From positions 682,001 to 746,000 of the forward strand of contig NZ_JAKENF010000001.1 of assembly GCF_021491355.1 (NCBI RefSeq): 64,000 bases of DNA, written 5' to 3'. The stretch comes from Alitabrizicola rongguiensis. GTDB lineage: Bacteria > Pseudomonadota > Alphaproteobacteria > Rhodobacterales > Rhodobacteraceae. The translations under genes were made by a program, and so were the position numbers. The notes below the pieces were generated by a model. The model ran no database searches. It saw only the letters and a list, made by a program, of their open reading frames with translations, and was not told the DNA's origin. Shown here piece after piece: positions 10,176 to 48,066 of the stretch; positions within the stretch are counted from its first letter, which is position 1; the number at the start of each line of letters is the position of its first letter.

Positions 10176-10293
10176 GCCGCGCCCCCATTTTCGCCCCTCT
10201 CGGTCTGACAAATCAGCGGCGCTGTCAACGCGGCGACACAAGCGCAATGTTCAGTGCGCGGTGCGCCGGCAGGATCAATCCGCTCGGCAGTCC

Positions 10294-12285: not shown

Positions 12286-12373
12286 TTCCGCCCTGCTTCC
12301 GGCAATGCCAAATCAGCAAACGTTGGCACGGATCGGTGTCATCTCCAATGATCTGGAGCAAGTCGAGACCGGA

Positions 12374-12682: not shown

Positions 12683-12696
12683 CTGCCTCTCTCCTC

Positions 12697-14898: not shown

Positions 14899-14922
14899 CG
14901 GATCAATCCCTCGTCCTGTCTT

Positions 14923-15228: not shown

Positions 15229-15234
15229 CTTCGA

Positions 15235-15636: not shown

Positions 15637-15823
15637 TTGCCACCCCTTGAAGCCGGTCGGGCGCTTTGCCTTCGCGCCTCTCGCTCACATGGGTAAGAGG
15701 CAACGGCTAACAGGCCCCTGCCTCTGCGGGCGCTAGATGCCTGCAGGCGCAACGGTCTGCATCATCCACAACGGAGCAAATCTACTTGCGAGCGGCGGGC
15801 GAGGAACTCGACGCCCGCGATCG

Positions 15824-29539: not shown

Positions 29540-31120
29540 CTAGCCCCACGCGCCGGTCAACACCCGGCGCGTGACCCGCTCGACGGGTGCATCATGCTTG
29601 ATGAGGCCCGCCACCCACTCGCAGGACGCCGCGTTGTAGACGGCCCCCTTGCCGCGTCGGTACTCGGCGATGCAGCCGTTGCCGCGCGAGGCGCGGCCGA
29701 CCGTTTCGGGCGTGACCGCGCCATAGACATTCAGCGCCACCTCCTCGGCATCAAGCGTGCCGATGAAGGGGTCGGCATCATGTGCGCCGGTCGAATGGGA
29801 CAGCGTCGTGGCGGGCGACAGCGCGACGATGGTCAGATCGCCCGCCAGTCCGGTTCCTTCGGCCGGATAAGGCAGTCCTTGGTCCATCGTGTAGTCGATC
29901 CCGTCGACCTCATAGGCGAAGATGCGGCTGTCCCGGCCCAGCACGTCGCCATAGCCAAGGCCGCTGTCGGTCAGGCTCCAGTGCTGGGGGCGATACAGGA
30001 TGAAACCGCCTGTGCCATGCGCGGCGCAGCGGCTCCATCCGGCATAGACCCCCATCGCTCCTGTCAGCCCCATCGTCGCGACCGCCGGGCGGCCGGTCTT
30101 GGGATTATCCCAGTAGTTCGTCAGGCGACTGAGGTCCTGCGTCGGGTCCTCCTTCGGCGCGCGGTACTTGTAGCAGATCTGGGTGGCAAGGTCGTCCGAC
30201 AGCCGCGTCTGCCAGAAGAAGTTCCCGGCAAAACGTGCAAGCTTGCCCCCCCGGTCGAGCCACGCGTCGAGATGGTCGCGCATCTCCCATGTCCAGTATT
30301 CGTCGTGGCCGACGATCAGCATCCGTTCATAGCCGTCCGCCAGCGCCGGGTCGCGATGCAGGTCGTGCTGCGTGGCGTAGTCCAGCGCTATGCCCTGTTC
30401 CTCGCACCACAAGGCGAATGGTTTCTCGAAGGCCGCCCAGCCGGAAGAGGCGTATTTCTTCGAGATGCCGTTGGCACGGGCATAATCCATATGCGGATAT
30501 TCTGGCTTCCGCAGCAGGGGAGACTCATGCGGAATGCGCGGCGCATCGTCGGGCCAGCGGACAAAGCCCTTGGCCCAGGGGCGATGGATCGACACCTCGG
30601 CAGCGAAATCGTCACCCCTCGTTCCGCTCAGACCCTGATAGTGGTTGGACCCGCCCCAGTCGTTGTAGGCGCACCATGTCCCGGTCGCGAGCAGCATCAG
30701 GATCTTCGCCGTGGGCTTCGCCGCCCGGACCACGAACATTCCTTCGGAGGTATGGCCGGGCACCGTCAGGCTGAACGCATAGACCCCGCTTCGCCAATCG
30801 GTCGGAATGGTCAGCGCGAGGGCCTCAGGCCAGCCACAGCCGCGTTCCGAGCAGTCGGCAGGCGTAGGTACGAAACCGCAGGCGATTTCCCGCTCCAGAA
30901 CCGTTTGCGGCTTGATCCCATCCCGCCGGATCACCAGCCGCGCGGTCGGCCCCTTGCCCATGACATGAAGCGCCAGCCGGTCACCGGGCGCATAGGACAG
31001 CCGGTCGGAATAGCCCCAGACCTGCGCTCGGTCAGGGACGTTCGAGGCTGTCTCGTAGTAGTGCCCGGTCACTGGATCGCCGTCGTCGAAGGGGCCGGTC
31101 ACGAAGAAGTCCTTCAGCAT
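29540..31120 (-). CDS. N,N-dimethylformamidase large-subunit-like protein
   Basis: A 526-residue protein resembling the large (beta) subunit of bacterial N,N-dimethylformamidase. It has the TGTWCAYNDWGGSNHY region at about residue 165, EEQGIALDYATQHDLHRDP, then the diagnostic VGHDEYWTWEMRDHLDAWLDRGGKLARFAGNFFWQ and a C-terminal EYRRGKGAVYNAASCEW. In DMFase a mononuclear iron is held by Tyr/Tyr/Glu; the Tyr in HDEYW and the Glu in the C-terminal block are plausible counterparts. No small subunit is adjacent. It is the last gene of the 12-gene operon, with a TGATG overlap to the S9 peptidase gene. Amide or peptide hydrolysis is likely; DMF as substrate is doubtful in this context. Confidence 0.75.
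   Translation of the reverse strand: MLKDFFVTGPFDDGDPVTGHYYETASNVPDRAQVWGYSDRLSYAPGDRLALHVMGKGPTARLVIRRDGIKPQTVLEREIACGFVPTPADCSERGCGWPEALALTIPTDWRSGVYAFSLTVPGHTSEGMFVVRAAKPTAKILMLLATGTWCAYNDWGGSNHYQGLSGTRGDDFAAEVSIHRPWAKGFVRWPDDAPRIPHESPLLRKPEYPHMDYARANGISKKYASSGWAAFEKPFALWCEEQGIALDYATQHDLHRDPALADGYERMLIVGHDEYWTWEMRDHLDAWLDRGGKLARFAGNFFWQTRLSDDLATQICYKYRAPKEDPTQDLSRLTNYWDNPKTGRPAVATMGLTGAMGVYAGWSRCAAHGTGGFILYRPQHWSLTDSGLGYGDVLGRDSRIFAYEVDGIDYTMDQGLPYPAEGTGLAGDLTIVALSPATTLSHSTGAHDADPFIGTLDAEEVALNVYGAVTPETVGRASRGNGCIAEYRRGKGAVYNAASCEWVAGLIKHDAPVERVTRRVLTGAWG
29548..29572. terminator. hairpin at the convergent 3' ends of DUF1428 and DMFase-like genes
   Basis: A perfect 9-bp stem (ACGCGCCGG with CCGGCGCGT) and 7-base loop starting 8 bp after the DUF1428 stop, inside the last codons of the DMFase-like gene. 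With no intergenic space it would have to serve as the plus-strand transcription stop while being coding on the minus strand. No T-tract, so only moderately supported. Confidence 0.4.
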
Positions 31121-32922
31121 CAGCGCATCCCTTCGGCGAAGGCCCGGTTCAGGAAGTCGAGACTCCGCTGCAGGTAGGTCTCGACATTCGAGCGGCGGAA
31201 AACCCCGTGCCCCTCGTTCCCGAACAGCATCACCTCGTGCGGGATGCCGGCATCGGTCATCTCGCGGATCGCGACATGGGTGTTCTCAGGTCCGACATTC
31301 GAGTCCGCCAGACCGTGCACCACCATGACATGCCCGCGGATCCGGTCGATGAAGTTGCCGGGCGAAGCATTGGCGTATTTCTCGGGGAATTCCTCGGGCG
31401 AGCCGCCCATCATCTCTTCCGAGTAGGCGCGGCCCCAGGGCATCTCGGTCGCATGATAATCGATGTCGAGCTTGTACATCCCGCACATCGGGATCGCCGC
31501 CGTCACCAGATCGGCGTGGCGGGTGATCGCGACCCAGCTTGAAAAGCCACCATAGGAGTTGCCGGCCACCGCGACCGGGCCGGGGATACCGGCCGCCAAC
31601 GCCGCCTCGATCCCAGCACGGATGTCGGCCTGTTCGCGCCCGCCCCAGCCGTCGTCCTTCACCGCCTCGCGATGCGCGAAGCCGAAACCGGTCGATCCGC
31701 GATAGTTGGAATCGAGCACGGCAAAGCCCGATTGCACCCAGAAGCCGATCTTTGGGTTCACCCAGTCCTCGGAATGCCAGGTCGGCCCGCCATGGACATA
31801 GGCGATCAGCCCCTTTGGCCTCCCCTCCGGGCGGTAGAGCCAGCCCTGCATCGGCAACCCGTCCGGCCCGGTCCAGCGGAAATCCTCGGGAGCAAGGTAA
31901 AGCCGTCCAGGCTCTTCTGGCGCACGTGCGAGCGGCAGACAGCCGCCATCCGGCAGAAGCCGCACAAGTTCGTGCGGCGCATCGGCATCGTAGGCCTCAG
32001 CCAGCCAACCGCCATCTGGCAGGGAAGCAAGCGGCAGCAGGCTCCGGCGGCCCGAGGTATTCGGCAAGGGCTGCCAATTCCCATTCGGACCAAAGACCAC
32101 CGCGCGGCTCCACGACTGATCATGGACGATGCAGGCAAAGCGCCCGCCTTCGCCCGGCAGCACATCGTGGGGGAACAGTTGCGGCTCGCCCGCCAGCCAC
32201 ACCATCTGCCCGGAAGATAGCGTCAGCACACCCACCCGGTCCCGCCCGTCGACATCGGCAACCACCGCGAGCCGGTCCTCGTCCAGCCAGTCGGCGCGGA
32301 TGTGGTTCGTCGGGCCAAGGTTCAGCACCTCGCGCAGGTCACTGCCATCCTCGTTCAGCACCCAGAGCTGGTCGCCCCCAGGCGCGAATTCGTGCCGGGT
32401 CCAGAGCCATTGCCGGCGCGAGGGTGAGGGCAGCGGCCCCGTCTCGAACGGCGAGCCGGCGCGGGCTAGTTCGGCAATTGCGCCGCTTGCAAGGTCCATC
32501 CGCCAGACGGCGACACCCTCGAACTCTTCCCTGCGCAGGTAGTCGAAGTTCGAGGTGAAGATGATCGCCCGTTCATCTGCCGTGAACCGCCCGCCGAAGA
32601 CGTAATGTGTATTCTGCGTGGGCGTCATCTGCCGCAGGCTTCCATCCCGGCGATCGAGAAGCAGAAGGTGGTCATGCTCGTTGGCATGGATCGACTGGGC
32701 AAGGATAAGCAGCATGCCGTCGCGGCTGACATCGCGGATCAGGAAGTGGTCCTGCCCCTCGGTCAACCTCTCCGGCGGGGCAGAGCCGTCCGTAGGGGCG
32801 CACCAGACATCCTCGGTCTCGCTCATCCCTGCCCAGCACCAGAAGGCCCATCTTCCATCGCCGCTGGCATGGACATGGGTGATCTGCGGCAGTGAGGCCC
32901 AGAGAGAGGCAGCGGTCGTCAT
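31120..32922 (-). CDS. S9-family (prolyl oligopeptidase-like) serine peptidase
   Basis: A 600-residue protein from the ATG at 32922 (MTTAASLWASLPQITHVHASGDG), which overlaps the upstream ABC ATPase stop by ATGA. The N-terminal 350 residues form a beta-propeller with repeated DG/SG-bounded blades. The C-terminal 250 form an alpha/beta hydrolase with GNSYGG (Ser456), LADSN (Asp540) and GHG (His572) as the triad, and the oxyanion-region HGGPTWHSEDW. No signal peptide, so it acts in the cytoplasm on imported peptides. Its position directly after an oligopeptide importer supports the assignment of a peptide or acyl-peptide substrate. Confidence 0.9.
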   Translation of the reverse strand: MTTAASLWASLPQITHVHASGDGRWAFWCWAGMSETEDVWCAPTDGSAPPERLTEGQDHFLIRDVSRDGMLLILAQSIHANEHDHLLLLDRRDGSLRQMTPTQNTHYVFGGRFTADERAIIFTSNFDYLRREEFEGVAVWRMDLASGAIAELARAGSPFETGPLPSPSRRQWLWTRHEFAPGGDQLWVLNEDGSDLREVLNLGPTNHIRADWLDEDRLAVVADVDGRDRVGVLTLSSGQMVWLAGEPQLFPHDVLPGEGGRFACIVHDQSWSRAVVFGPNGNWQPLPNTSGRRSLLPLASLPDGGWLAEAYDADAPHELVRLLPDGGCLPLARAPEEPGRLYLAPEDFRWTGPDGLPMQGWLYRPEGRPKGLIAYVHGGPTWHSEDWVNPKIGFWVQSGFAVLDSNYRGSTGFGFAHREAVKDDGWGGREQADIRAGIEAALAAGIPGPVAVAGNSYGGFSSWVAITRHADLVTAAIPMCGMYKLDIDYHATEMPWGRAYSEEMMGGSPEEFPEKYANASPGNFIDRIRGHVMVVHGLADSNVGPENTHVAIREMTDAGIPHEVMLFGNEGHGVFRRSNVETYLQRSLDFLNRAFAEGMR

Positions 32923-33899
32923 GTTGCACCTTCGATGAAATGGCATGCGGCCTGTCGGCCCCCGGCAAAGCCGCGCAGTTCCGGCCGCTCCTTGTGGCAA
33001 CGCGGCTGCACCAGCGGGCAGCGGGTGGCGAAGACACAGCCGGCCGGCGGGTTCAGCACCGACGGGATCTCGCCGGTGATCGCCGTGCCGCGCCGTGCCC
33101 GCTCTCGCTTCGGGTCGGGCTCCGGGACCGCATCCATAAGCGCGCGGGAATAGGGATGCAGGGGCCTGTCGAAGAAGGCCCGGCGCGGCGCCTTCTCGAC
33201 CACCCGGCCAAGGCACATAACCACCACCTCATGCGCCATCTGCCGCACGACCGCGAGGTTGTGCGAGATGAAGATAAGCGCGAGCCCCAATTGGTCCTGT
33301 AAGTCCATCAGCAGGTTGACCACCTGCGCCTGAACAGAAACATCCAGTGCCGACACCGGTTCATCGCAGACGACAAGCTTCGGCCCGCCGACTAGGGCGC
33401 GGGCAATGCCCACCCGCTGCGCCTGACCGCCCGACAATTCGTGAGGGTAACGGCCAAGAAAATCCGGGCCGAGGCCAACGCGTTCCAGCGCCTCGCGCGC
33501 CTTCACCTCGCGGTCCCTGCGCGACAGGCCCGGCGCGAAGGTGACGAGTGGCCGCGTGACAGATGCGAGAACGGTCATCCGCGGATCCAGGGCGGCGAGC
33601 GGATCCTGGAAGATGATCTGAAGCTCGGCCCGCTTCCGCCGCAGCGTCTCGGCGGGAAGGGACGCCATGTCTTCGCCCTGCCAGATCACCTTGCCGCCGG
33701 TCGGCTTGTTCAGCCGCAGGATGGCCCGCCCGAGAGTGGACTTGCCGCACCCGGATTCGCCAACGATACCAAGCGTCCGACCCGCGTCGAGATCGAACGA
33801 CGCCTCCCGAACGATGGGCAGGATGCGGGGCCGCGACAACAGGCCCTCACCGGGGATCGTATAGCCGACATCGAGCCGATCGACTTCAAGCAGCGGCAT
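32919..33899 (-). CDS. oligopeptide-type ABC importer ATPase (OppF-like)
   Basis: A 326-residue ATPase starting at 33899, chosen for GGAGGG upstream; an ATG 15 bp earlier is possible. Walker A GESGCGKST, Q-loop FQDPLAALDPRM, signature LSGGQAQRVGIARAL, Walker B LVVCDEPVSALD and switch FISHNLAVV are intact. The C-terminal GCVFATRCPLVQPRC is the Cys-containing oligopeptide-transporter domain, which in relatives binds a 4Fe-4S cluster. It pairs with the preceding OppD-like ATPase, whose coding end it overlaps by 14 bp. It powers import of the periplasmic ligand bound by the OppA-like protein of the same operon. Confidence 0.93.
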   Translation of the reverse strand: MPLLEVDRLDVGYTIPGEGLLSRPRILPIVREASFDLDAGRTLGIVGESGCGKSTLGRAILRLNKPTGGKVIWQGEDMASLPAETLRRKRAELQIIFQDPLAALDPRMTVLASVTRPLVTFAPGLSRRDREVKAREALERVGLGPDFLGRYPHELSGGQAQRVGIARALVGGPKLVVCDEPVSALDVSVQAQVVNLLMDLQDQLGLALIFISHNLAVVRQMAHEVVVMCLGRVVEKAPRRAFFDRPLHPYSRALMDAVPEPDPKRERARRGTAITGEIPSVLNPPAGCVFATRCPLVQPRCHKERPELRGFAGGRQAACHFIEGAT

Positions 33900-34860
33900 C
33901 GGCACCCTCCACATGGCACGCGATCCGGTGACTGCCGTTCGTGAGGAGCATGGGCGCTTCCTGGCTGCAGATCGCAATGCTTCGGTCGCAGCGCGGGGCA
34001 AAGGGGCAGCCTGGGCCGCGTCGTGCCGACGGCGTACCCGGGATGGTGCCAAGCCGCGCCGTTTCTTCCCCTTCAAGGCGGGGCATCGCTTCGAGCAGAC
34101 CCTGCGTGTAGGGATGGCGGGGACGATCGAAGAGCGTGTCGATTGCCGCCTCCTCCATCACCTGCCCGCCGTAAAGCACCAGCACCCTGTCGCACGCCCG
34201 CGCCACGACACCAAGATCATGGGTCACAAGGATCACCGCTGTTCCCGTTTCCCGCGCAAGCTCTGCGATCAGATCCAGCACCTGCGCCTGGATCGTCACG
34301 TCGAGTGCGGTGGTCGGCTCGTCTGCCAGCAGGATCGCGGGTTTCATCAGGAGAGCCATCGCGATCATGACCCGCTGCCGCATCCCGCCCGAGAACTGGT
34401 GCGGATAAGCCTTGGCTCGCGCCACCGGGTCAGGGATACGCACCCGGTCGAGCATCGCGACGGCTTCCTTCCAGGCCGCGTCGCGCGAAAGGCCCCGATG
34501 CACGATCAGCCCCTCGGCCAACTGGTCGCCCACCCTCTTATAGGGATTGAGCGCCGTCATCGGATCCTGGAACACGATCGACATCTCGGACCCGCGAACC
34601 CGGTCCAGCTCGCGCGGTGACAGGGCAAGCAGGTTGCGCCCGCCGAACATCGCCTCGCCCGCGGTACGGCCATTGCCAGCCAGAAGTCCCATCAGCGCGA
34701 ACAGGATCTGGCTTTTCCCCGACCCGCTTTCGCCGACGATCCCCAGCACCTCGCCCCGGTTCAGGTCGAAGCTCACGCCGTCGACCGCGCGGATCTCGGC
34801 CTGCGGCAGGCGGAAGGTCACGCGCAGGTCGCGGACCGAGAGGAGCGCGTCAGCGGTCAT
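33886..34860 (-). CDS. oligopeptide-type ABC importer ATPase (OppD-like)
   Basis: A 324-residue ATPase. The start at 34860 (MTADALLSVRDLRVTF) overlaps the permease stop by 11 bp; ATGs at 34875 and 34887 are in frame and none has a clear ribosome binding site, so translational coupling is assumed. Walker A GESGSGKSQ has Gln where Thr or Ser is usual after Ser, as seen in some OppD proteins. Signature FSGGMRQRVMIAMAL, Walker B ILLADEPTTALD and switch VTHDLGVV are normal, and the C-terminal Cys block GPGCPFAPRC is present. Forms the heterodimeric ATPase with the next gene product. Confidence 0.92.
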   Translation of the reverse strand: MTADALLSVRDLRVTFRLPQAEIRAVDGVSFDLNRGEVLGIVGESGSGKSQILFALMGLLAGNGRTAGEAMFGGRNLLALSPRELDRVRGSEMSIVFQDPMTALNPYKRVGDQLAEGLIVHRGLSRDAAWKEAVAMLDRVRIPDPVARAKAYPHQFSGGMRQRVMIAMALLMKPAILLADEPTTALDVTIQAQVLDLIAELARETGTAVILVTHDLGVVARACDRVLVLYGGQVMEEAAIDTLFDRPRHPYTQGLLEAMPRLEGEETARLGTIPGTPSARRGPGCPFAPRCDRSIAICSQEAPMLLTNGSHRIACHVEGADAAA

Positions 34861-35713
34861 TGGGGTCGAAGGCATCGCGCAGCCCATCCGCTATGAAGTT
34901 GAGACAAAGCAGCACTGCAACTAGGAAGGCCCCCGGCAGCAACAGAAGCCGCAGATCGGTATCCATCGCCGAGGTTCCGGTCTGGATGAGGTTGCCCCAG
35001 CTGGCCTGAGGTTCCTTGATGCCGATCCCGAGGAAGGAGAGGAAGCTTTCCGAAAGGATCACCTCGGGCACCAGCAGGCTGCCGTAGACGATGACCACCG
35101 AAAAGCAGTTCGGGACGATGTGGCGCAACACGATCCCTGTCGAGGTCATGCCTCCCGCCCGCGCCGCCTCGACGAATTCGCGCCGCGCGAGGCCCTCGGC
35201 CTGCGAGCGCACGATCACCGCAGGGGTCAGCCAAAGGGTGAAGACAATGGCAGCAAAGAGGGCGACGTTGCCACCTCCGAACAAGAGGCTCAGCAGGATC
35301 ACGAGGATGACGTAGGGAAAGCCGTAAAGGATTTCGACCATCCGCATCATCAGGCTGTCGGTCCGCCCGCCGGTGAACCCCGCAACCGCGCCGTAAAGCA
35401 CACCGATCCCGCCGGCGACGAGTGCACCGAGAAACCCTATCGTGAGCGAAACGCGGCCACCTTCCAGGGTGCGTACCAGGAGGTCGCGGCCATAGTCGTC
35501 GGTTCCGAACAGGTGCGGCGACGAAAAGTCGATCGGCGCCGAGATATAGTCGAAATCCGCATCCTCACCGGTGAACGGAAACAGGAAGGGGCCAAGAAAA
35601 CAGGCCAGCACGATCAGCGCCAGCACCCAAACCGAGGCGATCGCGAGACGGTTCCTGCGGAACCGGGCAAACTGCAGTTGCAGCGTCGAGAGGTTTTCGG
35701 TTTCAGCGGCCAT
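34850..35713 (-). CDS. oligopeptide-type ABC permease (OppC-like)
   Basis: A 287-residue inner-membrane protein. The N-terminal FARFRRNRLAIASVWVLALIVLACF block and HLFGTDDYGRDLLVRTLEGGRVSL are typical of OppC/DppC. The ATPase-coupling EAA loop reads FVEAARAGGMTSTGIVLRHIVPN. Five to six helices. It forms the translocation pore with the OppB-like protein, whose stop codon it overlaps by 11 bp. No close look at specificity is possible from permease sequence. Confidence 0.93.
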   Translation of the reverse strand: MAAETENLSTLQLQFARFRRNRLAIASVWVLALIVLACFLGPFLFPFTGEDADFDYISAPIDFSSPHLFGTDDYGRDLLVRTLEGGRVSLTIGFLGALVAGGIGVLYGAVAGFTGGRTDSLMMRMVEILYGFPYVILVILLSLLFGGGNVALFAAIVFTLWLTPAVIVRSQAEGLARREFVEAARAGGMTSTGIVLRHIVPNCFSVVIVYGSLLVPEVILSESFLSFLGIGIKEPQASWGNLIQTGTSAMDTDLRLLLLPGAFLVAVLLCLNFIADGLRDAFDPNDR

Positions 35714-36626
35714 TGCGCAACCTCGGATCGATCCAGGCGCGGATCAGGTCAGTGACGATGTTCAGCAGGATCAGAAGCGCGCCATAGAGAAGCGTGATCC
35801 CCATGACCAAGGGATAGTCGCGGTTCAGCGCGGCATCGACGAAATGCCGCCCGATCCCCGGCAGGGCAAAGATCGTCTCTATAAGGATCGAGCCGGTGAT
35901 GATCGCTGCTGTCGCCGGGCCAAGGTAGGCAATGACCGGCAACAACGTTCCTTTCAGCACATGGCCCCAGACGACGCGCCGCTCGCCGATCCCCTTGGCC
36001 CGTGCAGTCCGGACGTAGTTCTCGCGCAGGGTCTCGATCATCGACGACCGGGTAAGGCGGGAAATGTAGGCGATGTTGGGCAGGGCCAGGACGAGGATCG
36101 GCAGGACCAGGGCCCGCCAGCCACCCTCGATCCCCCCGACTGGCACCCAGCCAAGCCGCAGGGCGAAGATCACTTGCATCAGCGGACCGATAACGAAGAT
36201 CGGCACGGCAACCCCGACGATGCCGACGATTCCGGCCGCATAGTCGGTCGGGCTGTTGCGCCGCATCGCGCCGGCAACGCCAAGGGCAATGCCAACGAGG
36301 GACGCCACTATGATCGCCCATATGCCGATCGTGACCGACCACGGCAGGCCCGAGGCGATGATGCCACCGACATCGTAGTCGCGAAACCGGGTCGACGGAC
36401 CAAGGTCGAACGTGAGCAGTCCCTTCACGTAGCGCACGAACTGCATCCAGACCGGCTCGTCCAGATGATAGGTCTTCTGGATATTCGCAAGCACTTCGGG
36501 ACTGATCTTGCGCGACTTCGAGAAGGGTCCGCCTGGGGCGAGCCGCATGACGAAGAAGGTCAACGTGATCAAGGCCGCCAGAGTCAGCCCGCCGTCCCAA
36601 AGACGTTTTCCGATGAACCGCAGCAT
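35703..36626 (-). CDS. oligopeptide-type ABC permease (OppB-like)
   Basis: A 307-residue inner-membrane protein from the ATG at 36626 (MLRFIGKRLWDGGLTLAALI), chosen for GGAGG four bases upstream. FFVMRLAPGGPF at residue 26 is the usual OppB opening, and the EAA loop reads YVRTARAKGIGERRVVWGHVLKG. It has about six helices and ends with the conserved YGALLILLNIVTDLIRAWIDPR. It follows the solute-binding-protein gene after a 53-bp spacer that contains a strong hairpin, and it overlaps the OppC-like gene. Confidence 0.93.
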   Translation of the reverse strand: MLRFIGKRLWDGGLTLAALITLTFFVMRLAPGGPFSKSRKISPEVLANIQKTYHLDEPVWMQFVRYVKGLLTFDLGPSTRFRDYDVGGIIASGLPWSVTIGIWAIIVASLVGIALGVAGAMRRNSPTDYAAGIVGIVGVAVPIFVIGPLMQVIFALRLGWVPVGGIEGGWRALVLPILVLALPNIAYISRLTRSSMIETLRENYVRTARAKGIGERRVVWGHVLKGTLLPVIAYLGPATAAIITGSILIETIFALPGIGRHFVDAALNRDYPLVMGITLLYGALLILLNIVTDLIRAWIDPRLRNGR

Positions 36627-36645
36627 CCGGCCTCCAAGGCGCACG

Positions 36646-36673
36646 GGGTGCGGGCGTTTTCACGCCCGCACCC
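36646..36673 (-). ncRNA. intercistronic hairpin after the OppA-like gene
   Basis: A perfect 11-bp stem, GGGTGCGGGCG with CGCCCGCACCC, and a TTTTCA-equivalent 6-base loop, 6 bp past the binding-protein stop and 20 bp before the permease start. On the minus strand no T-run follows. As in other binding-protein operons it probably protects the upstream message from 3' exonucleases or partly terminates transcription, giving more binding protein than permease. Listed as an RNA element, not an independent sRNA gene. Confidence 0.65.
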
Positions 36674-36679
36674 GGCCCA

Positions 36680-38275
36680 TCACTCGAGCGACAGGAACTG
36701 CGAGTTGTTGTAGCCGGCGGCAGAGGTCGCCCAGCCCTTCACATTCGGGCTGACCATGTGCCGGGTCGGCTCGATGGCGATCGGCGCAAAGATCGTATCG
36801 TCGAGCAGGATCTTCTCGGCCGCAGCCAGCTTCTCGTTGCGAGCGGCCGGATCGACCTCTTGCGCTGCCACATCCATCGCGGCGTCATATTCCGGCTTCA
36901 CCCAGTTGTAGCCGGGCTCTGCCGACGGGCGCATATAGGCAAGGAATGTCTCGGCCCCGGCGAAGTCGCCGACAAGGTTGTCGGCAAATACGTCCCAGTC
37001 ACCGGCATAGAATGCATCGAGCCAGGCCTTGCGCTCCATCGAGTCGACGCTCGCCTCGACCCCGAGGGTCTTCTTCCACATCAACGCCACGCCCTGCGCC
37101 AGACGGACACGGTCCTCGGCAACCGTGGTGACGATCTTGAGCTTCAGAGGATTGTCGGGCCCGAAGCCGGCCTTCGCGAGCAGTTCCTTCGCCATCGCGT
37201 CGCGATCGGCCTGGGTCATCGTGGCCTCGGCGATCTGCGGTCCGTGATAGTCAGGGTCGAAGCCGCCTGCATAGGAATAGCTCGGAATCGCACCGCCCTT
37301 TACGATCTTGGCCTGAAGCGTCTCGCGGTCGATGGCAAGAGACAGGGCCCTGCGCACGTCGATGTTATCCAGCGGAGGACGCTTCAGGTTGAAGCTGTAG
37401 TAGGTGACCTCTGTCGAAGGCCCGATCGAGACCTGGTCCGGCACACTGGCCTTCAGGTCCTCGATCTGGTTCACTGGGATGTCGTAGGTGATGTCGATCT
37501 CGCCCGCCTGGTAGCGCTTCAGCTCGGTGTTCACGTCTTCTGTCACAAGATAGCGGACCTTCGGAATCTTGACGTTCGCCGCATCCCAGTAGTTCGGGTT
37601 CTTCTCAAGCAACACATGGCTTTGCGGAACGACTTCCTTGATCACATAGGCGCCATTGCTGACGACCTTTGTCGGGTCGATGAACACCGCCGCGCCGTTC
37701 GCTTCAAAGCTCGGCCCGTGGAGCGGCGGCACCTGGAAGCCCCCCATGATGTCAAGCATGTGCGGGTTGGGCGACTCGAGTTCGACGACGACGGTGCGGT
37801 CGTCGGGTGCCTTGAACCCTAGCGTCGCCGGGTCCTTGGTTTCACCATCGGCAATGGCCTTGGCGCCCTTCACCTGGATCACAGAGTAGAAATAGTAACC
37901 CTTCTCCGATGCGGTATCGGGATTGAGTGTCCGCATCACACCGTTGACGAAGTCCTGTGCGACCAACGGATCGCCGTTGGACCACTTGAGTCCATCGCGC
38001 AAATGGAAGGTCCAGGTCTTGCCATCTGCACTCACGTCCCAGCTCTCGGCAGCGCCGGGGATGACCTTGCCGGTGCTGTCGAAGGTCACCAGCCCCTCGT
38101 AGGCGTCCATCTGGATCCAGCCTGCCGCAGCATCGAAGTTCACATGGGGGTCAAGCGAGGACCATTCCGATCCAATACCCCGATCAAGGGTGTCGTCGGC
38201 CAGCACAGGGTTTCCGAAGCTGAGGGCAGCTGCCAGGATCAGGCCGCTCAGCGCCGTTCCGATGAGTCGTCTCAT
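36680..38275 (-). CDS. oligopeptide-type solute-binding protein (OppA-like)
   Basis: A 531-residue periplasmic protein. The ATG at 38275 (MRRLIGTALSGLILAAALSF) was chosen over one 6 bp upstream because GGGAG is then 8 bases away. A Sec signal peptide of about 27 residues ends at PVLA-DD. The mature protein is an SBP_bac_5 cluster C protein: IGSEWSSLDPHVNFDAAA, AAESWDVSADGKTWTFHLRDGLKWSNGDPL, and NIDVRRALSLAIDRETL. Ligands of this family range from peptides to metal complexes and glycosides. The intracellular S9 peptidase, deacylase and amidohydrolase genes in the same operon point to an acylated or peptide-like ligand. Confidence 0.93.
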   Translation of the reverse strand: MRRLIGTALSGLILAAALSFGNPVLADDTLDRGIGSEWSSLDPHVNFDAAAGWIQMDAYEGLVTFDSTGKVIPGAAESWDVSADGKTWTFHLRDGLKWSNGDPLVAQDFVNGVMRTLNPDTASEKGYYFYSVIQVKGAKAIADGETKDPATLGFKAPDDRTVVVELESPNPHMLDIMGGFQVPPLHGPSFEANGAAVFIDPTKVVSNGAYVIKEVVPQSHVLLEKNPNYWDAANVKIPKVRYLVTEDVNTELKRYQAGEIDITYDIPVNQIEDLKASVPDQVSIGPSTEVTYYSFNLKRPPLDNIDVRRALSLAIDRETLQAKIVKGGAIPSYSYAGGFDPDYHGPQIAEATMTQADRDAMAKELLAKAGFGPDNPLKLKIVTTVAEDRVRLAQGVALMWKKTLGVEASVDSMERKAWLDAFYAGDWDVFADNLVGDFAGAETFLAYMRPSAEPGYNWVKPEYDAAMDVAAQEVDPAARNEKLAAAEKILLDDTIFAPIAIEPTRHMVSPNVKGWATSAAGYNNSQFLSLE

Positions 38276-38319
38276 TGTCATTGCTCCCGTTGGATGTCGT
38301 CTTCTTGTTGTACGTTCGT

Positions 38320-39441
38320 TCAGTCTGACAGCAGATCACCCGTTCTGACAATCCTTTCCCCAGCGATATGCGCAAGACTTGCCCCGCGCAGGCACGGTCG
38401 CCACAGCTCCTGCCGGAACACCATTCCACTGGTCGGAGCAAGAACCGGCAGGCGCGTCCTGGTCAGCGGCTCGGTCACATGCGCGATTGCATCGCCCTGT
38501 TGCACCATGGCTCCGGGGCTGACCGTCCAGGTCACAATCCCCCCCTGCGGCGCGAAGACCTCGGCCGCTCCGCCCAACGGAAGGGTCAGGGCATCAGGAT
38601 AGGCAGGCGCCGCATCCTGATTGGTCACCACACCGATGCCGGCAAGAAATATCATAAGGTTAGCGGCATCTTCAGCGGCAGTGGCGTCGTCCACGTCAAA
38701 CTGGCCACGATACTCGAGTGTCGTCGAGAAACATGGCGATGGAATGGGAAAGCGGTCGCCGAACCGGTCCTTCAGATGCTTCCAGGGGGCGGTGTTCGCC
38801 TCGTCGAAAGCGTGGCCGCCGGACACTGCTTCGATCAGCGCCAGTCTTGCGCCGGTCGCGCGGCAGAGGAGCGAGGTGATCTCGGGACGGGCAGGGCTGG
38901 CATAAAGGTGCAAAACCGCAAAGTGATCGCAATGCAGATCCAGCACGTAGTCCGCATCGCAGGACCAGGACAGGAGCGTCAGCTGTTCCTCGATCATCTC
39001 GGTCCGGGCGTGTGAAAGTTCCGCAGCCAGCGCCTCGCGGAAGGCGGCGCGAATCACATCGCGGTTGGCATCGGGATCGTCTGTAAGTTTGGATTCCACA
39101 CGGTCGCCGACCAAGAGCGAAAGATCGGGATAGCCGCGGTTGAAATTGTGCAGTGTCTCGGCCTCCATCCGACCAAGTGGGCGCTGGAAGGCCCATTGGG
39201 AAAGGCCCAGCGGGTTGGCCACCGGTACAACGCGTACCTCGCCATGGATGCGCCCTTCCATGTCGGCCCGGTCAAGCAGCGGCAAGAGATGCTGCAGCAC
39301 AAGGACGCCTGGCATCTCGTCCGCATGAAGCCCGGCCTGAAGGTAGACCACCGGCCCGTTTCCGTCGCCATAACGGTGGCAGATCAGCCTGCGGCGGGTT
39401 CCGGGTGAGGAAGACCCCAACTCTTGCGTTTCGGTCTTCAT
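38320..39441 (-). CDS. succinylglutamate desuccinylase/aspartoacylase family (M14) deacylase
   Basis: A 373-residue protein from the ATG at 39441, with GAGGAGAGGGG upstream. The zinc site is visible: GLHADEMPG gives His39 and Glu42, and LDLHCD gives His170; Glu243 in TLEYRG is the probable general base. The C-terminal 90 residues (PQGGIVTWTVSPGAMVQQGDAIAHV and later LAPTSGMVF) look like a lipoyl/biotinyl-type beta-barrel, as in other members of this branch. These enzymes remove N-acyl groups from amino acids (N-acetylaspartate, N-succinylglutamate, N-acetyl-diaminobutyrate in DoeB). It probably deacylates the imported or processed substrate. Exact substrate unknown. Confidence 0.85.
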   Translation of the reverse strand: MKTETQELGSSSPGTRRRLICHRYGDGNGPVVYLQAGLHADEMPGVLVLQHLLPLLDRADMEGRIHGEVRVVPVANPLGLSQWAFQRPLGRMEAETLHNFNRGYPDLSLLVGDRVESKLTDDPDANRDVIRAAFREALAAELSHARTEMIEEQLTLLSWSCDADYVLDLHCDHFAVLHLYASPARPEITSLLCRATGARLALIEAVSGGHAFDEANTAPWKHLKDRFGDRFPIPSPCFSTTLEYRGQFDVDDATAAEDAANLMIFLAGIGVVTNQDAAPAYPDALTLPLGGAAEVFAPQGGIVTWTVSPGAMVQQGDAIAHVTEPLTRTRLPVLAPTSGMVFRQELWRPCLRGASLAHIAGERIVRTGDLLSD

Positions 39442-39451
39442 GCCCCTCTCC

Positions 39452-40465
39452 TCACCATGCGGACAGCACTGCTTCCAGATTGTCACCCAGTTCCGGGCAA
39501 AGGTAGCCGCCCTCCTGGACGATCACTGTGGGCAGTCCGAGCCTCGCGATTGCCTGCCCGATCCGCCGGAATCCCGGCGTCGTCACCTTCAGTCCTGCAA
39601 ACGGATCCCCCTCGAAGGCATCCAGCCCCAACGCCAGAACCAAGGTGTCGGTTTCGTGCCGAGTCAGCGCCTCCAGCCCGAGGTCAAGCGCCGCAAGGAA
39701 TCCTTCGTCGCCAGTTCCCCGCTCAAGCGCGAGGTTGAGATTCGCACCCTCGCCATCGCCTGCGCCACGCTCTTCGGGATAGCCCCAGAAGAACGGATAG
39801 AAGCGTTCCGGATGCGCGTGGATCGAGATCGTCAACACGTCACTCCGGTCGTAGAAGATCCCCTGGGTGCCGTTCCCATGGTGCAAATCCACGTCAAGGA
39901 TTGCCACGCGCCGCCCCGCTGCCACAAGCCGCTCGGCCGCAATCGCCGCGTTGTTCAGGTAACAGAATCCGCCTGCAAGATCGGAAAAACAGTGATGGCC
40001 CGGGGGCCGCGACAAGGCATAGACCGCCCGCTCGCCGTCCAGCACAAGATCCGTCGCATGGATCGCGGTCTGTGCGCTTGCATAGGCGGCGGCCCAAGTC
40101 TCGGCGCCAATCGGACAGGACGTGTCGGTCATGTGAAACCCGGCCTGCCCTACGGCGGATTTCGGATAGCCGTCGCTGCGGGTTGCAGGGTGAATGTTGG
40201 GGATGACCTCGGCGCTTGCGCCTTCGATGCGTTGCCAGCGGGTGAAGATTGTCTGCAGAAAGGTCAGATAGCGATCCGGATGAACGGCACGGATCGGCGC
40301 GATCCCGTTGTCCGGCGGGGCCACCATCGGCCCCCCGAGCCGCCTCACGCCGCCCAGGAGCGCCTCGATCCTGGACGGTTTTTCAGGGCAGGGCTGGGCT
40401 GCGCCAGAGGACAGGAAGAACTGTGGATCATGCAGGCGCTGAGCCGCATCAAAAACAGTGATCAT
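39452..40465 (-). CDS. acetylpolyamine amidohydrolase-like class II histone-deacetylase-family enzyme
   Basis: A 337-residue enzyme of the arginase/deacetylase fold. The catalytic set is complete: tandem His157-His158 in SRPPGHH, zinc ligands Asp193 and His195 in DVDLHHGNGTQ, Asp282 in LGLDAFEGDP, and the oxyanion Tyr321 in QEGGY. Length and the SYHPER-like AHPERFYPFFWG segment match bacterial acetylpolyamine amidohydrolases, which deacetylate N-acetyl-putrescine, -cadaverine or -lysine-like amines. It overlaps the GNAT gene by ATGA and is followed 10 bp later by the M14 deacylase, so the operon has two different N-deacylases in tandem. Cytosolic. Confidence 0.88.
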   Translation of the reverse strand: MITVFDAAQRLHDPQFFLSSGAAQPCPEKPSRIEALLGGVRRLGGPMVAPPDNGIAPIRAVHPDRYLTFLQTIFTRWQRIEGASAEVIPNIHPATRSDGYPKSAVGQAGFHMTDTSCPIGAETWAAAYASAQTAIHATDLVLDGERAVYALSRPPGHHCFSDLAGGFCYLNNAAIAAERLVAAGRRVAILDVDLHHGNGTQGIFYDRSDVLTISIHAHPERFYPFFWGYPEERGAGDGEGANLNLALERGTGDEGFLAALDLGLEALTRHETDTLVLALGLDAFEGDPFAGLKVTTPGFRRIGQAIARLGLPTVIVQEGGYLCPELGDNLEAVLSAW

Positions 40466-40932
40466 GACCGCTCCAACGAGGCGAACGCCTCTCCGTCAAG
40501 AATTAGGAAGTCATAGCCGCGAGGCCGGAAGCCGAGCTTGTCATAGGCCGCTTTGGCCGCCGTGTTGTCGGGGCTCACCGACAGCGTCATATAGCGCGCG
40601 CCCCAGCAGGATTCGGCCAAAGCTCGCGCCCGCGACAGAAGCTGCCGCCCGACCCCTTGGCCGCGCAACCGTTCCTCTACAAACAGATCCTGCACGTAAA
40701 GGCCCGGCTCTCCGCGGAGGGTGGAGAAATCGGGGTAGAACAGCACCAGCCCGACCGCCTCGCCTTCCTCCTCGGCCAGCACCGCTCGGAACAGAGGCCG
40801 CTCGCCGAAGCCATGTTTCAGCAGCGCACTTGCTGGCCCGACCTCGGGGCCCCCATCATGATCGGAAAGAGCCTGGAGAAGGTCACGGATGACCAGCACA
40901 TCCTCGGCAACGGCAGAACGAAAGGAAATCAT
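40462..40932 (-). CDS. GNAT N-acetyltransferase, SSAT/thialysine-acetyltransferase-like
   Basis: A 156-residue protein starting MISFRSAVAED at the ATG overlapping the BKACE stop. The acetyl-CoA pocket is RLRGQGVG (residues 90-95 carry RGxGxG), followed by the family ending AAKAAYDKLGFRPRG. The middle segment, FYPDFSTLRGEPGLYVQDLFVEE, closely resembles diamine/thialysine N-acetyltransferases of the SAT1/SAT2 type, suggesting an amine on a short linker as acceptor. It lies between BKACE and an acetylpolyamine amidohydrolase, so acetylation and deacetylation of an amine appear to be encoded side by side. Confidence 0.82.
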   Translation of the reverse strand: MISFRSAVAEDVLVIRDLLQALSDHDGGPEVGPASALLKHGFGERPLFRAVLAEEEGEAVGLVLFYPDFSTLRGEPGLYVQDLFVEERLRGQGVGRQLLSRARALAESCWGARYMTLSVSPDNTAAKAAYDKLGFRPRGYDFLILDGEAFASLERS

Positions 40933-41840
40933 CTGCCCTTCAGCTCCAGCATGGCACGCACCTCGGACGGCGTCGCCACCTCGCGGCCCAGCCCCTCGAC
41001 GATTCCGCGGATCAGCATCACCTGTTCGGCGTTCGACTGCGCGAGCCTTCCCTTGGCAAGGTAGAGGTTGTCCTCCAGCCCCACCCGAACATGCCCTCCC
41101 ATCGCGGCGGCCATCGTGGCCATCGGAATCTGCGCCCGCCCTGCCGCCAGCACAGAAAAGTGGTAGTCCGACCCGAACAAGCGGTCGGCTGTCCGCTTCA
41201 GATGAGTAAGCGTGTCGGGCTCTGGCGCCATTCCGCCCAGAACACCGAAGACGAACTGGATGAAATACGGTGCCTTGACCGCCCCACGGTCGACGAAATG
41301 CTTCAGCATCGTAAGATGGCCGATATCGTAGCACTCGAACTCGAACCGCGCGCCACGCTCATCGCCCATCTCGTGCAGTACGTGAGCAATGTCACGCGGG
41401 GTGTTCTTGAACACGAGGTCGTCCGTGCCGTCGAGGAACGGCTTCTCCCAGTCGAACTTCCACTGCCTCGGCTTCTCGGCCATCGGATAAAGGGCGAAGT
41501 TCATCGACCCCATGTTGAGGCTGCACATCTCGGGCGCGAATTGCTTCGGTGCCGCGAGGCGTTGCTCAAGCGTCATGATCGCCGAACCACCGGTCGTCAT
41601 GTTCACGACCGCATCGGTTTCGCCAAGGATCGTCGGCAGGAATGCTCCCCAATGCGCCGGATCGGCCGAGGGGCGGCCGTTCGCCGGGTCGCGGGCGTGC
41701 AGATGCAGGATGCCGGCCCCGGCTTCCGCGGCACCAATCGCCTGGCTCGCGATCTCGTCCGCAGTCACGGGCAGGTGGGGCGACATCGACGGCGTATGGA
41801 TCGAGCCGGTAATCGCGCAGGTGATGATGATCTTCGACAT
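40929..41840 (-). CDS. beta-keto acid cleavage enzyme (BKACE, Kce/DUF849 family)
   Basis: A 303-residue TIM-barrel enzyme. The zinc ligands His46 and His48 sit in LHLHARD, MTTGG follows at 81-85, and the third ligand Glu256 lies in GGHVRVGLEDN, all as in 3-keto-5-aminohexanoate cleavage enzyme. BKACEs condense a beta-keto acid with acetyl-CoA and split off acetoacetate, giving a shorter acyl-CoA; different subgroups use keto-aminohexanoate, dehydrocarnitine, beta-ketoglutarate and others. The subgroup here cannot be told. The gene overlaps the aminotransferase by TGATG, consistent with the transaminase supplying the beta-keto acid. Start chosen as MSKIIITCAITGS; the frame is open 9 codons upstream. 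Confidence 0.93.
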   Translation of the reverse strand: MSKIIITCAITGSIHTPSMSPHLPVTADEIASQAIGAAEAGAGILHLHARDPANGRPSADPAHWGAFLPTILGETDAVVNMTTGGSAIMTLEQRLAAPKQFAPEMCSLNMGSMNFALYPMAEKPRQWKFDWEKPFLDGTDDLVFKNTPRDIAHVLHEMGDERGARFEFECYDIGHLTMLKHFVDRGAVKAPYFIQFVFGVLGGMAPEPDTLTHLKRTADRLFGSDYHFSVLAAGRAQIPMATMAAAMGGHVRVGLEDNLYLAKGRLAQSNAEQVMLIRGIVEGLGREVATPSEVRAMLELKGR

Positions 41841-43198
41841 CAGCTTCCCGACACCGGCAGATCGCACTCTGCCGCAAAGGCTTCGAGCGCGTCGACCAGC
41901 CGTTCCATGATCTCGCCCACCTGCGCCTCGGTGGTAATCATCGGGGGTGCGACGATCACATGGTCGCCGGCATAGCCCCCGCGTGTCCGGCGCGGATAGA
42001 CGATAAGGCCGCGCTGGTAGGCCTGCTCGGTCAGCCGGTCGTAGGCGCGAAGCGCGGGCGGCAGCACCTCTTTCGTCTCGCGATCCTTGACGAGTTCAAA
42101 GGCCAGAAGCAGCCCCTTGCCGCGCACGTCGCCGATGAAGGGATAGCGGTCCATCAGGGCGGTCAGCTGCGACTTGATCATCCCGCCGATCTTGACGGCA
42201 TTCGCCATCATCTCCTGCCGCTCGATCTCCTCGATGACGGCAAGACCCGCGGCGCAGGCCAGCGGATTGCCGGCATAGGTGAAGCCATGCAGGAAGCCAC
42301 CGGCCTTGAGCAGACTGTCCACCAGATCGCCCCGCGCGACGATCGCACCAAGCGGCATGTAGCCAGCCCCGAAGCCTTTCGACACCGCAAGGATGTCCGG
42401 CGCGCCGTTCCAGTTCTGGCCGCCGAAGAGCTTGCCCGTCCGCCCGCCGCCCGACATCACCTCGTCATGTATCAGCAGGACCCCGTGCCGGTCGCACACC
42501 TCGCGGATCGCCTCCATGTAGCGGGCGGGCGGGACCAGAGCGCCCGTCGACGCGCCGCCGACCGGCTCGACGATGAAGGCCAGCACGCTGTCCGGCCCTT
42601 CTGCGCGGATCTTTGCGTCAAGCATGTGGGCATAGTGTTCGCCTGTCGCAGGATCCTCGGGATCAAGTCCGTCAAGCCATGCCGTTGGCGCGGGAACCTT
42701 GGGCATCTCGACCATCATGGGCTTGAACGGGTCGGTCAGGTGGTCATAGCCGCTGACTGTCAGCGCCCCGAGCGTGCAGCCGTGATACGAGGGGAAGCGT
42801 GAAATGATCTTCCACCGGCTGCCCTGCCCGATAGCAACGGCGTACTGGCGGGCCAGCTTCATCGCCGACTCGACCGCCTCGGACCCGCCCGAGACGAAGA
42901 ACACCCGGTCCATCCCTGGCCAGGCATAGTCGACCATCTTCGCCGCCAGCCGCTCCGACGGTTCTGTGACGAAGTGCAGACGGTAGCCGAAGGTCGACTT
43001 CTCCATCTGCTTGCGCATCGCTTCCAGCACATAGGGGTTCGAATGGCCGATATTGCAGACCATCGCGCCTGATGAGCCGTCGATGAACCGGTTGCCCTCG
43101 GAATCCCACATGTAGATTCCTTCGGCCCGATCCAGCACCGGACGGGGATGCTCGGTCTGGTAGAACAGATGCGACGTGGCGTTCCTGAGCTGGTTCAT
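41840..43198 (-). CDS. class III (omega) aminotransferase
   Basis: A 452-residue PLP enzyme from the ATG at 43198 (MNQLRNATSHLF), with GGAGAG upstream. The PLP Lys is Lys274 in AVSKGFGAGYMPLGA, Asp245 in LLIHDEVMSGGGRTG binds the pyridine nitrogen, and SGGSEAVESAMKLARQY forms the phosphate cup. This branch acts on omega-amines and beta-amino acids with pyruvate or similar acceptors. As the first gene of the 12-gene operon and translationally coupled to BKACE, it most likely converts a beta-amino acid into the beta-keto acid that BKACE cleaves. That pairing is inference from order and known chemistry. Confidence 0.92.
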   Translation of the reverse strand: MNQLRNATSHLFYQTEHPRPVLDRAEGIYMWDSEGNRFIDGSSGAMVCNIGHSNPYVLEAMRKQMEKSTFGYRLHFVTEPSERLAAKMVDYAWPGMDRVFFVSGGSEAVESAMKLARQYAVAIGQGSRWKIISRFPSYHGCTLGALTVSGYDHLTDPFKPMMVEMPKVPAPTAWLDGLDPEDPATGEHYAHMLDAKIRAEGPDSVLAFIVEPVGGASTGALVPPARYMEAIREVCDRHGVLLIHDEVMSGGGRTGKLFGGQNWNGAPDILAVSKGFGAGYMPLGAIVARGDLVDSLLKAGGFLHGFTYAGNPLACAAGLAVIEEIERQEMMANAVKIGGMIKSQLTALMDRYPFIGDVRGKGLLLAFELVKDRETKEVLPPALRAYDRLTEQAYQRGLIVYPRRTRGGYAGDHVIVAPPMITTEAQVGEIMERLVDALEAFAAECDLPVSGS

Positions 43199-43240
43199 GC
43201 GACTCTCCGTTTTCGCGCGGAAGACTGGACGGGGTCGCAC

Positions 43241-43297
43241 CCATAGATCAAATAGATAATTGGAATGTGAAGCATTGACAGGAATTATGATCTATGG
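43241..43297. promoter_or_regulatory. inverted-repeat LysR operator between aminotransferase and LysR genes
   Basis: Two perfect 10-bp arms, CCATAGATCA at 43241-43250 and TGATCTATGG at 43288-43297, lie 47 bp apart centre to centre. A further ATAGAT copy at 43252-43257 repeats the left half directly. This AT-rich 95-bp gap is the only control region for the divergent 12-gene operon and the lysR gene. The right arm covers the annotated LysR start codon. The geometry suits binding of a LysR tetramer to two sites. Confidence 0.75.
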
Positions 43298-47991: not shown

Positions 47992-47997
47992 GCGAAT

Positions 47998-48022
47998 GGG
48001 CCGCCCCTTGCAGGGGCGGCCC
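47998..48022 (+). ncRNA. intercistronic hairpin after the second peptide-binding-protein gene
   Basis: A perfect 10-bp stem, GGGCCGCCCC with GGGGCGGCCC, around TTGCA, starting 6 bp after the stop codon and 44 bp before the permease start. It is followed by TATTCC rather than a T-run, so read-through into the permease genes is expected. It likely stabilises the binding-protein message or lowers downstream expression. Confidence 0.65.
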
Positions 48023-48066
48023 TATTCCGAATGCCCGGTATCTCCCATCACCTGCAGGACAATCGC

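Follow-up and report, generated by a model that had tools for sequence, protein, structure and literature searches.

The degradation of L-beta-lysine by Pseudomonas B4, described by the Barker laboratory in 1979–1981, reportedly proceeds by acetylation, transamination, acetyl-CoA-dependent cleavage of a beta-keto acid and deacetylation. The pathway is said to be known as purified activities (EC 2.6.1.65 and EC 3.5.1.51). We know of no sequences for it, nor of any link to genes in some 45 years. Among the open-licence PMC papers that our searches listed, none assigns genes to the beta-lysine pathway by title or abstract; a text search for the pathway intermediates returned a single paper, unrelated by its title, and a search for EC 2.6.1.65 returned none.

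A parallel gene set occurs in Bacilli, comprising an aminotransferase, CoA-transferase A/B, an M20 deacylase and ablB, which encodes a putative beta-lysine N-acetyltransferase; on three records a match to lysine 2,3-aminomutase comes next. We take this to be the kamA-yodPQRST operon, with YodT as its aminotransferase. A passage of a review states that KamA of B. subtilis makes L-beta-lysine in vitro, and another that the function of the aminomutase in the operon ‘remains to be determined’ (PMC6522883).

The locus described here lies in a window of 64,000 nt, the whole stretch of Alitabrizicola rongguiensis DNA that was analysed (Table 1). Its first four genes, encoding a class III aminotransferase (AT3), BKACE, a GNAT acetyltransferase and an HDAC-fold deacetylase, have a proposed logic that matches the Pseudomonas B4 route step for step, with one enzyme type per core gene; beyond them, the window carries Opp import, S9, M14 and an acylase. 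Like the core, the Bacilli operon combines an acetyltransferase and a deacylase with a class III aminotransferase related to AT3, and its aminotransferase, CoA-transferase pair and M20 are also seen in four alphaproteobacterial core variants. It differs in using a CoA-transferase in place of BKACE and M20 in place of the HDAC-fold enzyme, and in carrying its own lysine 2,3-aminomutase. Counting against beta-lysine, no KamA-family gene was found in the window’s own genome and none matched at the core’s place in 53 core genomes, though 18 of the 53 have such a gene elsewhere. Likewise, no core genes lay within 1.5 kb of the 53 AblA-like matches checked, out of 59 in Pseudomonadota, none of which scores above the TIGR03820 cut-off, and the ten families that the window GNAT matched with E-values of up to 0.001 did not include TIGR03827 (AblB). 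The initial annotation knew of no described pathway with this gene set. In our literature searches that stands for the gene set, but not for the chemistry, which follows the Pseudomonas B4 route and has a parallel in the Bacilli operon. The locus would be a new genetic variant of an already known pathway, acting on a putative beta-lysine substrate.

Table 1. Features of the locus, with positions in the window, strand and basis of assignment
Feature	Position	Strand	Basis
Class III aminotransferase (AT3), proposed to act on N6-acetyl-beta-lysine	41840..43198	-	PF00202; nearest solved chain 3i4j
BKACE, proposed 3-keto-6-acetamidohexanoate cleavage enzyme	40929..41840	-	PF05853; NF053538
GNAT acetyltransferase, proposed omega-N-acetylation of diamino acid	40462..40932	-	PF00583
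HDAC-fold deacetylase, proposed on 4-acetamidobutyryl-CoA or 4-acetamidobutyrate	39452..40465	-	PF00850; active-site comparison
M14 / AstE-AspA type metallo-amidohydrolase	38320..39441	-	PF24827; nearest solved 8ein
OppA-type solute-binding protein	36680..38281	-	PF00496; nearest solved 4toz
OppB-type permease	35703..36626	-	sequence; conserved order across loci
OppC-type permease	34850..35713	-	sequence; conserved order across loci
OppD-type ATPase	33886..34875	-	sequence; conserved order across loci
OppF-type ATPase	32919..33899	-	PF00005, PF08352
S9 prolyl-oligopeptidase family hydrolase	31120..32922	-	PF00326
DMFA2_C-family acylase, proposed N-acyl-beta-amino acid acylase	29540..31120	-	PF20254; profile match to 8huy
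Divergent LysR regulator	43294..44271	+	PF03466, PF00126
Shared control region, 95 nt	43199..43293	.	between AT3 and divergent LysR gene

The coordinates bear out the initial description of twelve open minus-strand genes running head to tail behind one control region. All twelve (29540–43198) are intact and each abuts or overlaps the next, the widest gap being 53 nt. Overlaps of 1–26 nt are found at 8 of the 11 junctions, the other three having gaps: HDAC-fold-M14 (10 nt), M14-OppA (38 nt) and OppA-OppB (53 nt). The BKACE start shares 1 nt with the AT3 stop, and the ATG codons at 40932 (GNAT) and 32922 (S9) each give a 4-nt overlap with the preceding gene, BKACE and OppF, respectively. The likely start is the upper coordinate of each minus-strand gene, e.g. 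43198 for AT3 and 31120 for the acylase. The twelve genes presumably form one transcript. The control region contains an inverted repeat, CCATAGATCA / TGATCTATGG, at 43241–43250 and 43288–43297, the second half of which enters the LysR start; in a Rhodobacter MAG (L002), just one of the halves is conserved. The gene families named initially agree with Pfam for the nine of twelve proteins run; OppB, OppC and OppD are named from sequence and gene order only.

From this gene content we propose, with a probability of roughly 0.6, that the operon serves the catabolism of a diamino beta-amino acid, with beta-lysine the likeliest, which would enter either in free form or conjugated to an N-acyl group or a peptide. 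Acetyl-protected breakdown of beta-lysine is its probable function, with reactions that would run as follows. A conjugate would be taken up by the Opp importer and opened by S9, M14 and the acylase. GNAT would then acetylate the omega-amine, presumably to keep the later keto acid from cyclising, and AT3 would transaminate the beta-amine to give the beta-keto acid. BKACE would convert 3-keto-6-acetamidohexanoate and acetyl-CoA to 4-acetamidobutyryl-CoA and acetoacetate, and the HDAC-fold enzyme would remove the acetyl group, yielding 4-aminobutyrate after thioester hydrolysis. The evidence consists of gene content, conservation, the exchange of BKACE and HDAC-fold genes, and active-site changes. 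Comparison supports and narrows what was first suggested, an N-acyl beta-amino acid or diamine such as an N-acetyl-beta-lysine-like compound, then transamination and BKACE cleavage, but not a single 12-gene pathway; and the HDAC-fold enzyme and GNAT are better read as taking an acetyl protecting group off and putting it on than as acting further on an imported amide.

Recurrence of the genes shows that the block consists of two modules, an AT3-BKACE-GNAT-HDAC-fold core and an M14-OppABCDF-S9-acylase import cassette. The first four genes recur in the same order in distant genera and the Rhodobacter MAG keeps the whole order from AT3 to the acylase, with 86–98% identity per gene, so that the grouping is not due to chance. 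The core families do co-occur: among 64 loci, a sample picked by similarity, AT3 is present at 58, BKACE at 55, the HDAC-fold gene at 52, GNAT at 44 and LysR at 42, with AT3 and BKACE together at 49 and all four enzyme types of the Pseudomonas B4 pathway at 31, the window included. In Alphaproteobacteria, the core is found with four importer types. The import cassette is rarer than the core, and it occurs in four MAGs that have no AT3 match. Since the cassette also exists without the core, we set aside one dedicated 12-gene pathway, as annotated at first, in favour of a widespread four-gene core joined to an import cassette. The solved chain nearest to OppA is a periplasmic murein peptide-binding protein (4toz).

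The exchange of BKACE for other enzymes bears on its substrate. At five AT3 loci (L048, L122, L123, L131 and L133), which are spread over three positions within the core AT3 group of the tree, a CoA-transferase A/B pair replaces BKACE; in none of the five do both occur. CoA transfer followed by thiolysis is the textbook alternative route for a beta-keto acid, and a thiolase gene is present at three of these loci. The exchange therefore points to a beta-keto acid as the BKACE substrate. The window BKACE scores 492.1 bits (cut-off 430) against NF053538, 3,5-dioxohexanoate:acetyl-CoA acetone transferase, a model name that need not equal its natural substrate. By sequence, it shares a BKACE subfamily with BKACE15 of Paracoccus denitrificans (8rip, 9hnf), which, in the relevant passages of PMC11961710, accepts several uncharged C5–C6 beta-keto acids and is given a physiological role that is unknown, with a context suggesting aromatics.

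Such breadth leaves room for another diamino beta-amino acid handled by the same acetyl-protection logic, such as beta-ornithine, 3,5-diaminohexanoate, hydroxy-beta-lysine or a beta-arginine product. None of the present comparisons sets the chain length, and some accessories that beta-lysine leaves unexplained at the 64 loci (racemase/N-acetyltransferase pairs at 5, an FAD oxidase at 17 and RidA at 10) hint, in the case of racemase and oxidase, at other or additional substrates. The parallel set anchored by an aminomutase, however, is annotated for lysine and beta-lysine, and we regard a different diamino acid as unlikely.

The core AT3 group has a tree support of 100/98, and the top profile models of the window enzyme, NF005685 followed by NF005375, are also those of a Cytobacillus aminotransferase in reversed order; for NF005375, the window enzyme scores 404.6 bits, under the cut-off of 535, and the Cytobacillus enzyme 626.8. 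The nearest solved chain, 3i4j, is also given as the nearest structure for B. subtilis YodT in a passage of PMC6522883. The Bacilli aminotransferases nevertheless share only 33–39% identity with the window enzyme and lie, in the tree, outside its relatives of 43–48% identity. The latter occur in other settings near BKACE or an acylase, with the HDAC-fold gene absent, and AT3 plus BKACE alone is therefore not a sign of beta-lysine. Together with two loci (L124 and L127) that have acylase-AT3-BKACE and neither GNAT nor HDAC-fold gene nearby, these relatives would suit a generic scavenging of N-acyl-beta-amino acids, in which AT3 and BKACE act on neutral beta-amino acids and GNAT and the HDAC-fold enzyme are loose accessories. 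This we consider improbable: the high frequency of the HDAC-fold and GNAT genes, and an M20 deacylase at four of the five CoA-transferase loci, all of which lack the HDAC-fold gene, make deacetylation look like part of the pathway.

The active site bears on whether the HDAC-fold enzyme could be an acetylpolyamine amidohydrolase. Its nearest solved chains (3men, 9gkz, 6phr and 3q9b) carry that name, and it shares with the bacterial enzymes so named (M. ramosa, P. aeruginosa PA1409 and PsApaH) the HDAC fold, the catalytic residues, and the RPPGHH and EGGY motifs seen in short-acyl deacetylases. H158, H159, D195, H197, D284 and RPPGHH are conserved in all 52 core enzymes, and EGGY in 51, the remaining sequence being truncated at that point. 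Three differences were found. First, the PIS motif of polyamine deacetylases, placed at 290–292 in PMC11532494, is in none of the 52, the window reading PFA. Second, the polyamine-binding acid at the position of M. ramosa E106 is kept in one enzyme only (L115), with Val in the window; by itself this is a weak criterion, since PsApaH is described as having His there (PMC11532494). Third, Arg221 is present in 49 of the 52 and in none of six homologues outside the module, the equivalent being Glu in M. ramosa ApaH and Leu in P. aeruginosa. The three loci without Arg221 (L129, L137 and L138) all have an M20 gene as well, so that deacylation could there be split between enzymes or have passed to another one.

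The homologues outside the module (44–55% identity) lie alongside ABC importers and other hydrolases, one of them beside class III aminotransferase genes and one two genes from a BKACE; given such varied settings, the HDAC-fold gene alone is not diagnostic. Acetylpolyamine catabolism, in which Opp would import acetylated polyamine conjugates and AT3 would be a polyamine aminotransferase, draws on the names of the solved chains, a weakly Pot-like binding protein at 20 of the 64 loci, an annotated gamma-aminobutyraldehyde dehydrogenase near L049 that belongs to a set of genes also having homologues in L105, and an outside-module relative (47%, L177) adjoining agmatinase genes, but it leaves BKACE without a substrate, fits neither the active-site motifs nor the beta-keto acid indicated by the CoA-transferase exchange, and is set aside as very improbable.

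Returning to beta-lysine, we tentatively suggest, at less than even odds, that the core supplies the genes so far missing for the Pseudomonas B4 beta-lysine pathway, that the HDAC-fold enzyme is the 4-acetamidobutyryl-CoA deacetylase, and that the core acts as a hub to which varied importers and opening enzymes are joined. Each such set, with an acylase, a creatininase-like enzyme, an FAD oxidase or a racemase pair for opening, might then serve a different environmental beta-lysine conjugate, for example a peptide antibiotic or a product of the degradation of beta-lysylated protein. If true, genes would be at hand for enzyme activities that, as far as we know, have gone about 45 years without assignment, and an HDAC relative would have a metabolic role beyond acetylated polyamines or proteins. 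It would also give a function to the BKACE subgroup that includes BKACE15, a natural substrate to an HDAC-fold clade whose present annotation is that of histone or polyamine deacetylases, and a way of reading the parallel Bacilli operon that can be put to the test.

The last gene of the cassette was initially called a DMFase-like amidase. It does belong to the DMFA2_C family (PF20254), but its closest solved relative is a beta-amino-acid acylase, which speaks for the beta-amino acid reading, and an N,N-dimethylformamidase function was set aside on that ground. The family profile gives 5.6e-70 for the N-acetyl-(R)-beta-phenylalanine acylase 8huy and 1.9e-35 for N,N-dimethylformamidase. The match to 8huy covers nearly the full length of the acylase family; at its N-terminus, 8huy is longer by about 250 residues.

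The system, whose core consists of a class III aminotransferase (AT3), a BKACE, a GNAT acetyltransferase and an HDAC-fold hydrolase, is real and conserved; its best reading is a genetically novel version of a pathway already described, with an import cassette for conjugates. The block of twelve head-to-tail genes claimed in the initial annotation is present with all genes intact in the 4.2 Mb host genome; eight of the eleven junctions overlap, and the remaining three are gaps of 10, 38 and 53 nt. The window BKACE scores above the NF053538 cut-off. An interval of 95 nt separates the first operon gene from a divergent LysR gene, and the inverted repeat in this interval (see table) retains a single half in L002, the homologous locus of an uncultured Rhodobacter MAG. 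The binding protein of the second Opp-type importer in the window has 65–66% relatives near core genes in three other loci (L097, L100, L101), where an M19 dipeptidase gene accompanies them.

Coordinates of features in the window and in two other loci
Feature	Sequence	Position	Strand	Remark
Twelve-gene operon	Window	29540-43198	-	
Inverted repeat, AT3-LysR interval	Window	43241-43297		Perfect, 10 nt; one arm covers the LysR start
Second Opp-type importer	Window	46390-51597	+	
Acylase, BKACE and HDAC-fold matches in pieces	L052, Rhizobium sp. RCAM05350 plasmid	10464-15856		
HDAC-fold relative (52%), two genes from a BKACE gene	L174, Azospirillum	8001-11623		

At least one other core gene was found at 29 of 30 BKACE loci (1.5 kb flanks, own genome counted). 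We read 64 loci, mostly of 10–25 kb, and since these were picked by similarity to AT3, BKACE or M14, the counts within 11 kb express association, not natural frequency: AT3 is present at 58, BKACE at 55, the HDAC-fold gene at 52, GNAT at 44 and LysR at 42, with AT3 and BKACE together at 49 and all four core genes at 31. The importers at these loci are of the SBP_bac_3 type (17), a weakly Pot-like SBP_bac_8 type (20), the branched-chain type (5) or the window-type Opp (3). A search at E 1e-150 found AT3 orthologues in 20 of the 385 genomes covering the class and in 21 of the 398 covering the phylum, these 21 all coming from the same class; among plasmid records, one labelled Roseateles also carries an orthologue. 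The split matches in L052 look like frameshifts, perhaps sequencing errors.

Five loci (REPLACEMENTS: L048, L122, L123, L131, L133) pair AT3 with CoA-transferase A/B genes; BKACE and the HDAC-fold gene are each found at 0/5, an M20 deacylase at 4/5 and a thiolase at 3/5. L126 has BKACE and M20 without an HDAC-fold gene, and L129, L137 and L138 hold all three. All 58 core rows group together in the AT3 tree (100/98), and the five with CoA-transferase genes are spread over three positions within it, with one fork open. A beta-keto acid can be used either by CoA transfer and thiolysis or by BKACE cleavage, and the deacylase can be either an M20 or an HDAC-fold enzyme. Because the enzymes exchange at both steps, we read the AT3 product as a beta-keto acid carrying an acyl-amide, for which this exchange is the strongest argument.

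In work of the Barker laboratory, L-beta-lysine degradation by Pseudomonas B4 reportedly begins with N6-acetylation, followed by transamination to 3-keto-6-acetamidohexanoate; acetyl-CoA dependent cleavage is said to yield 4-acetamidobutyryl-CoA and acetoacetate, and a final deacetylation and thioester hydrolysis 4-aminobutyrate. Set against this route, to which no genes have been assigned to our knowledge, the core offers one gene per step. A 4HBT thioesterase gene is added at 7/64 loci; the window operon has none. Against the beta-lysine reading, the racemase pairs, FAD oxidases and RidA at core loci are not accounted for, and L124 and L127 have neither GNAT nor HDAC-fold genes nearby. No aminomutase linked to the core was found in the Pseudomonadota examined, so that beta-lysine would have to be supplied to core hosts from outside.

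Several neighbourhoods carry further genes. Five loci (L098, L099, L102, L104, L108) combine the core with a branched-chain type importer and homologues of two D-glutamate enzymes, DgcA (racemase) and DgcN (N-acetyltransferase), the two DgcA/DgcN representatives scanned being far under their cut-offs. In L103, L114, L119, L125, L129, L130, L137, L138 and others, the core stands with the Pot-like importer, an FAD-dependent oxidoreductase and RidA. Near core genes, L094 and L101 carry genes for an IclR regulator and for an Ala_racemase_N/D-ser_dehydrat protein (Pfam assignments from the copies in L094), which in L094 flank an aminotransferase-like gene; we take these to resemble beta-hydroxyaspartate cycle genes.

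The import half proved separable. A tblastn survey with the M14 gene as query (closest named match L002, 89%), in which the relatives' neighbourhoods were read, showed M14-OppABCDF-S9 to be one unit that includes the acylase in some loci. L002 joins it to the core in the window's order, and L007 has the core on the opposite strand; an S9-acylase pair in L094 and an M14-S9 pair in L097 adjoin HDAC-GNAT-BKACE genes. Eleven genomes, counting that of the window, have an M14 relative at 57% identity or more; core genes were found in seven of them and lie adjacent in five, and four MAGs have no AT3 match at E 1e-120. Both parts are uncommon: M14 (E 1e-40) is found in 4/149 genomes of the order, counting the own genome and one 41% match, and BKACE of at least 68% identity in 36/248 of the family. 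Given this rarity, chance is an unlikely explanation for adjacency that recurs in differing arrangements. The cassette is not confined to core loci, however: no core genes neighbour it in L003-L006 and L014 (contig ends cut L003, L005 and L006).

Positions 37-548 of the 550 in the acylase family profile align with N-acetyl-(R)-beta-phenylalanine acylase, and in L050 (Sinorhizobium) and L134, among other loci, the acylase gene stands immediately before AT3. In the HDAC-fold enzymes, the catalytic H158, H159, D195, H197 and D284 of M. ramosa ApaH are kept in 52/52. The ApaH glutamates 17 and 117 are replaced by F in 51/52 (R in one) and by A or S in 52/52, respectively; Glu106 is V in 45/52 and retained in one (L115), and PIS becomes PF[GQAKR] in 48 and PL[KQ] in four. 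Roles of E106 and PIS in acetylpolyamine amidohydrolases are treated in section 16 of PMC11532494. Not all of these changes are specific, since F/Y at 17, uncharged 106/117 and PIS loss also occur in most of six homologues outside the module (44-55% identity). The residues that discriminate the module in the alignment are Arg221 (49/52 versus 0/6) and Trp227 (52/52 versus 1/6); the three enzymes without Arg221 are exactly those of the loci also carrying M20 (L129, L137, L138). Genes for an ABC importer and for a Zn-dependent hydrolase accompany the HDAC-fold relative in L174, beside which no class III aminotransferase is annotated.

A parallel exists in Bacilli. Records of Cytobacillus spongiae, Bacillus velezensis and B. 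subtilis show an aminotransferase gene followed in order by those for CoA-transferase A and B, an M20 'peptidase', ablB and then lysine 2,3-aminomutase, which in the B. subtilis record is an unannotated two-piece match; the Cytobacillus proteins exceed the cut-offs of TIGR03820 (636 bits) and TIGR03827 (286 bits). Passages of PMC6522883 report that KamA forms L-beta-lysine in vitro, state that its physiological role has yet to be established, and suggest that YodT might concern biotin. NF005685 and NF005375 score window-type and Bacilli aminotransferases in opposite order. In the aminotransferase tree, a branch (99/92) sets the rows from Bacilli and Alphaproteobacteria together apart from eight own-genome paralogues, although relatives of 43-48% near other BKACE/acylase genes fall between the Bacilli rows and the alphaproteobacterial ones. 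Such relatives in L167, L168, L169 and L171 probably represent other beta-amino acid pathways; those of Limimaricola, the Sinorhizobium meliloti pSymA and S. terangae lie near BKACE, and that of Roseomonas near a DMFase-type gene.
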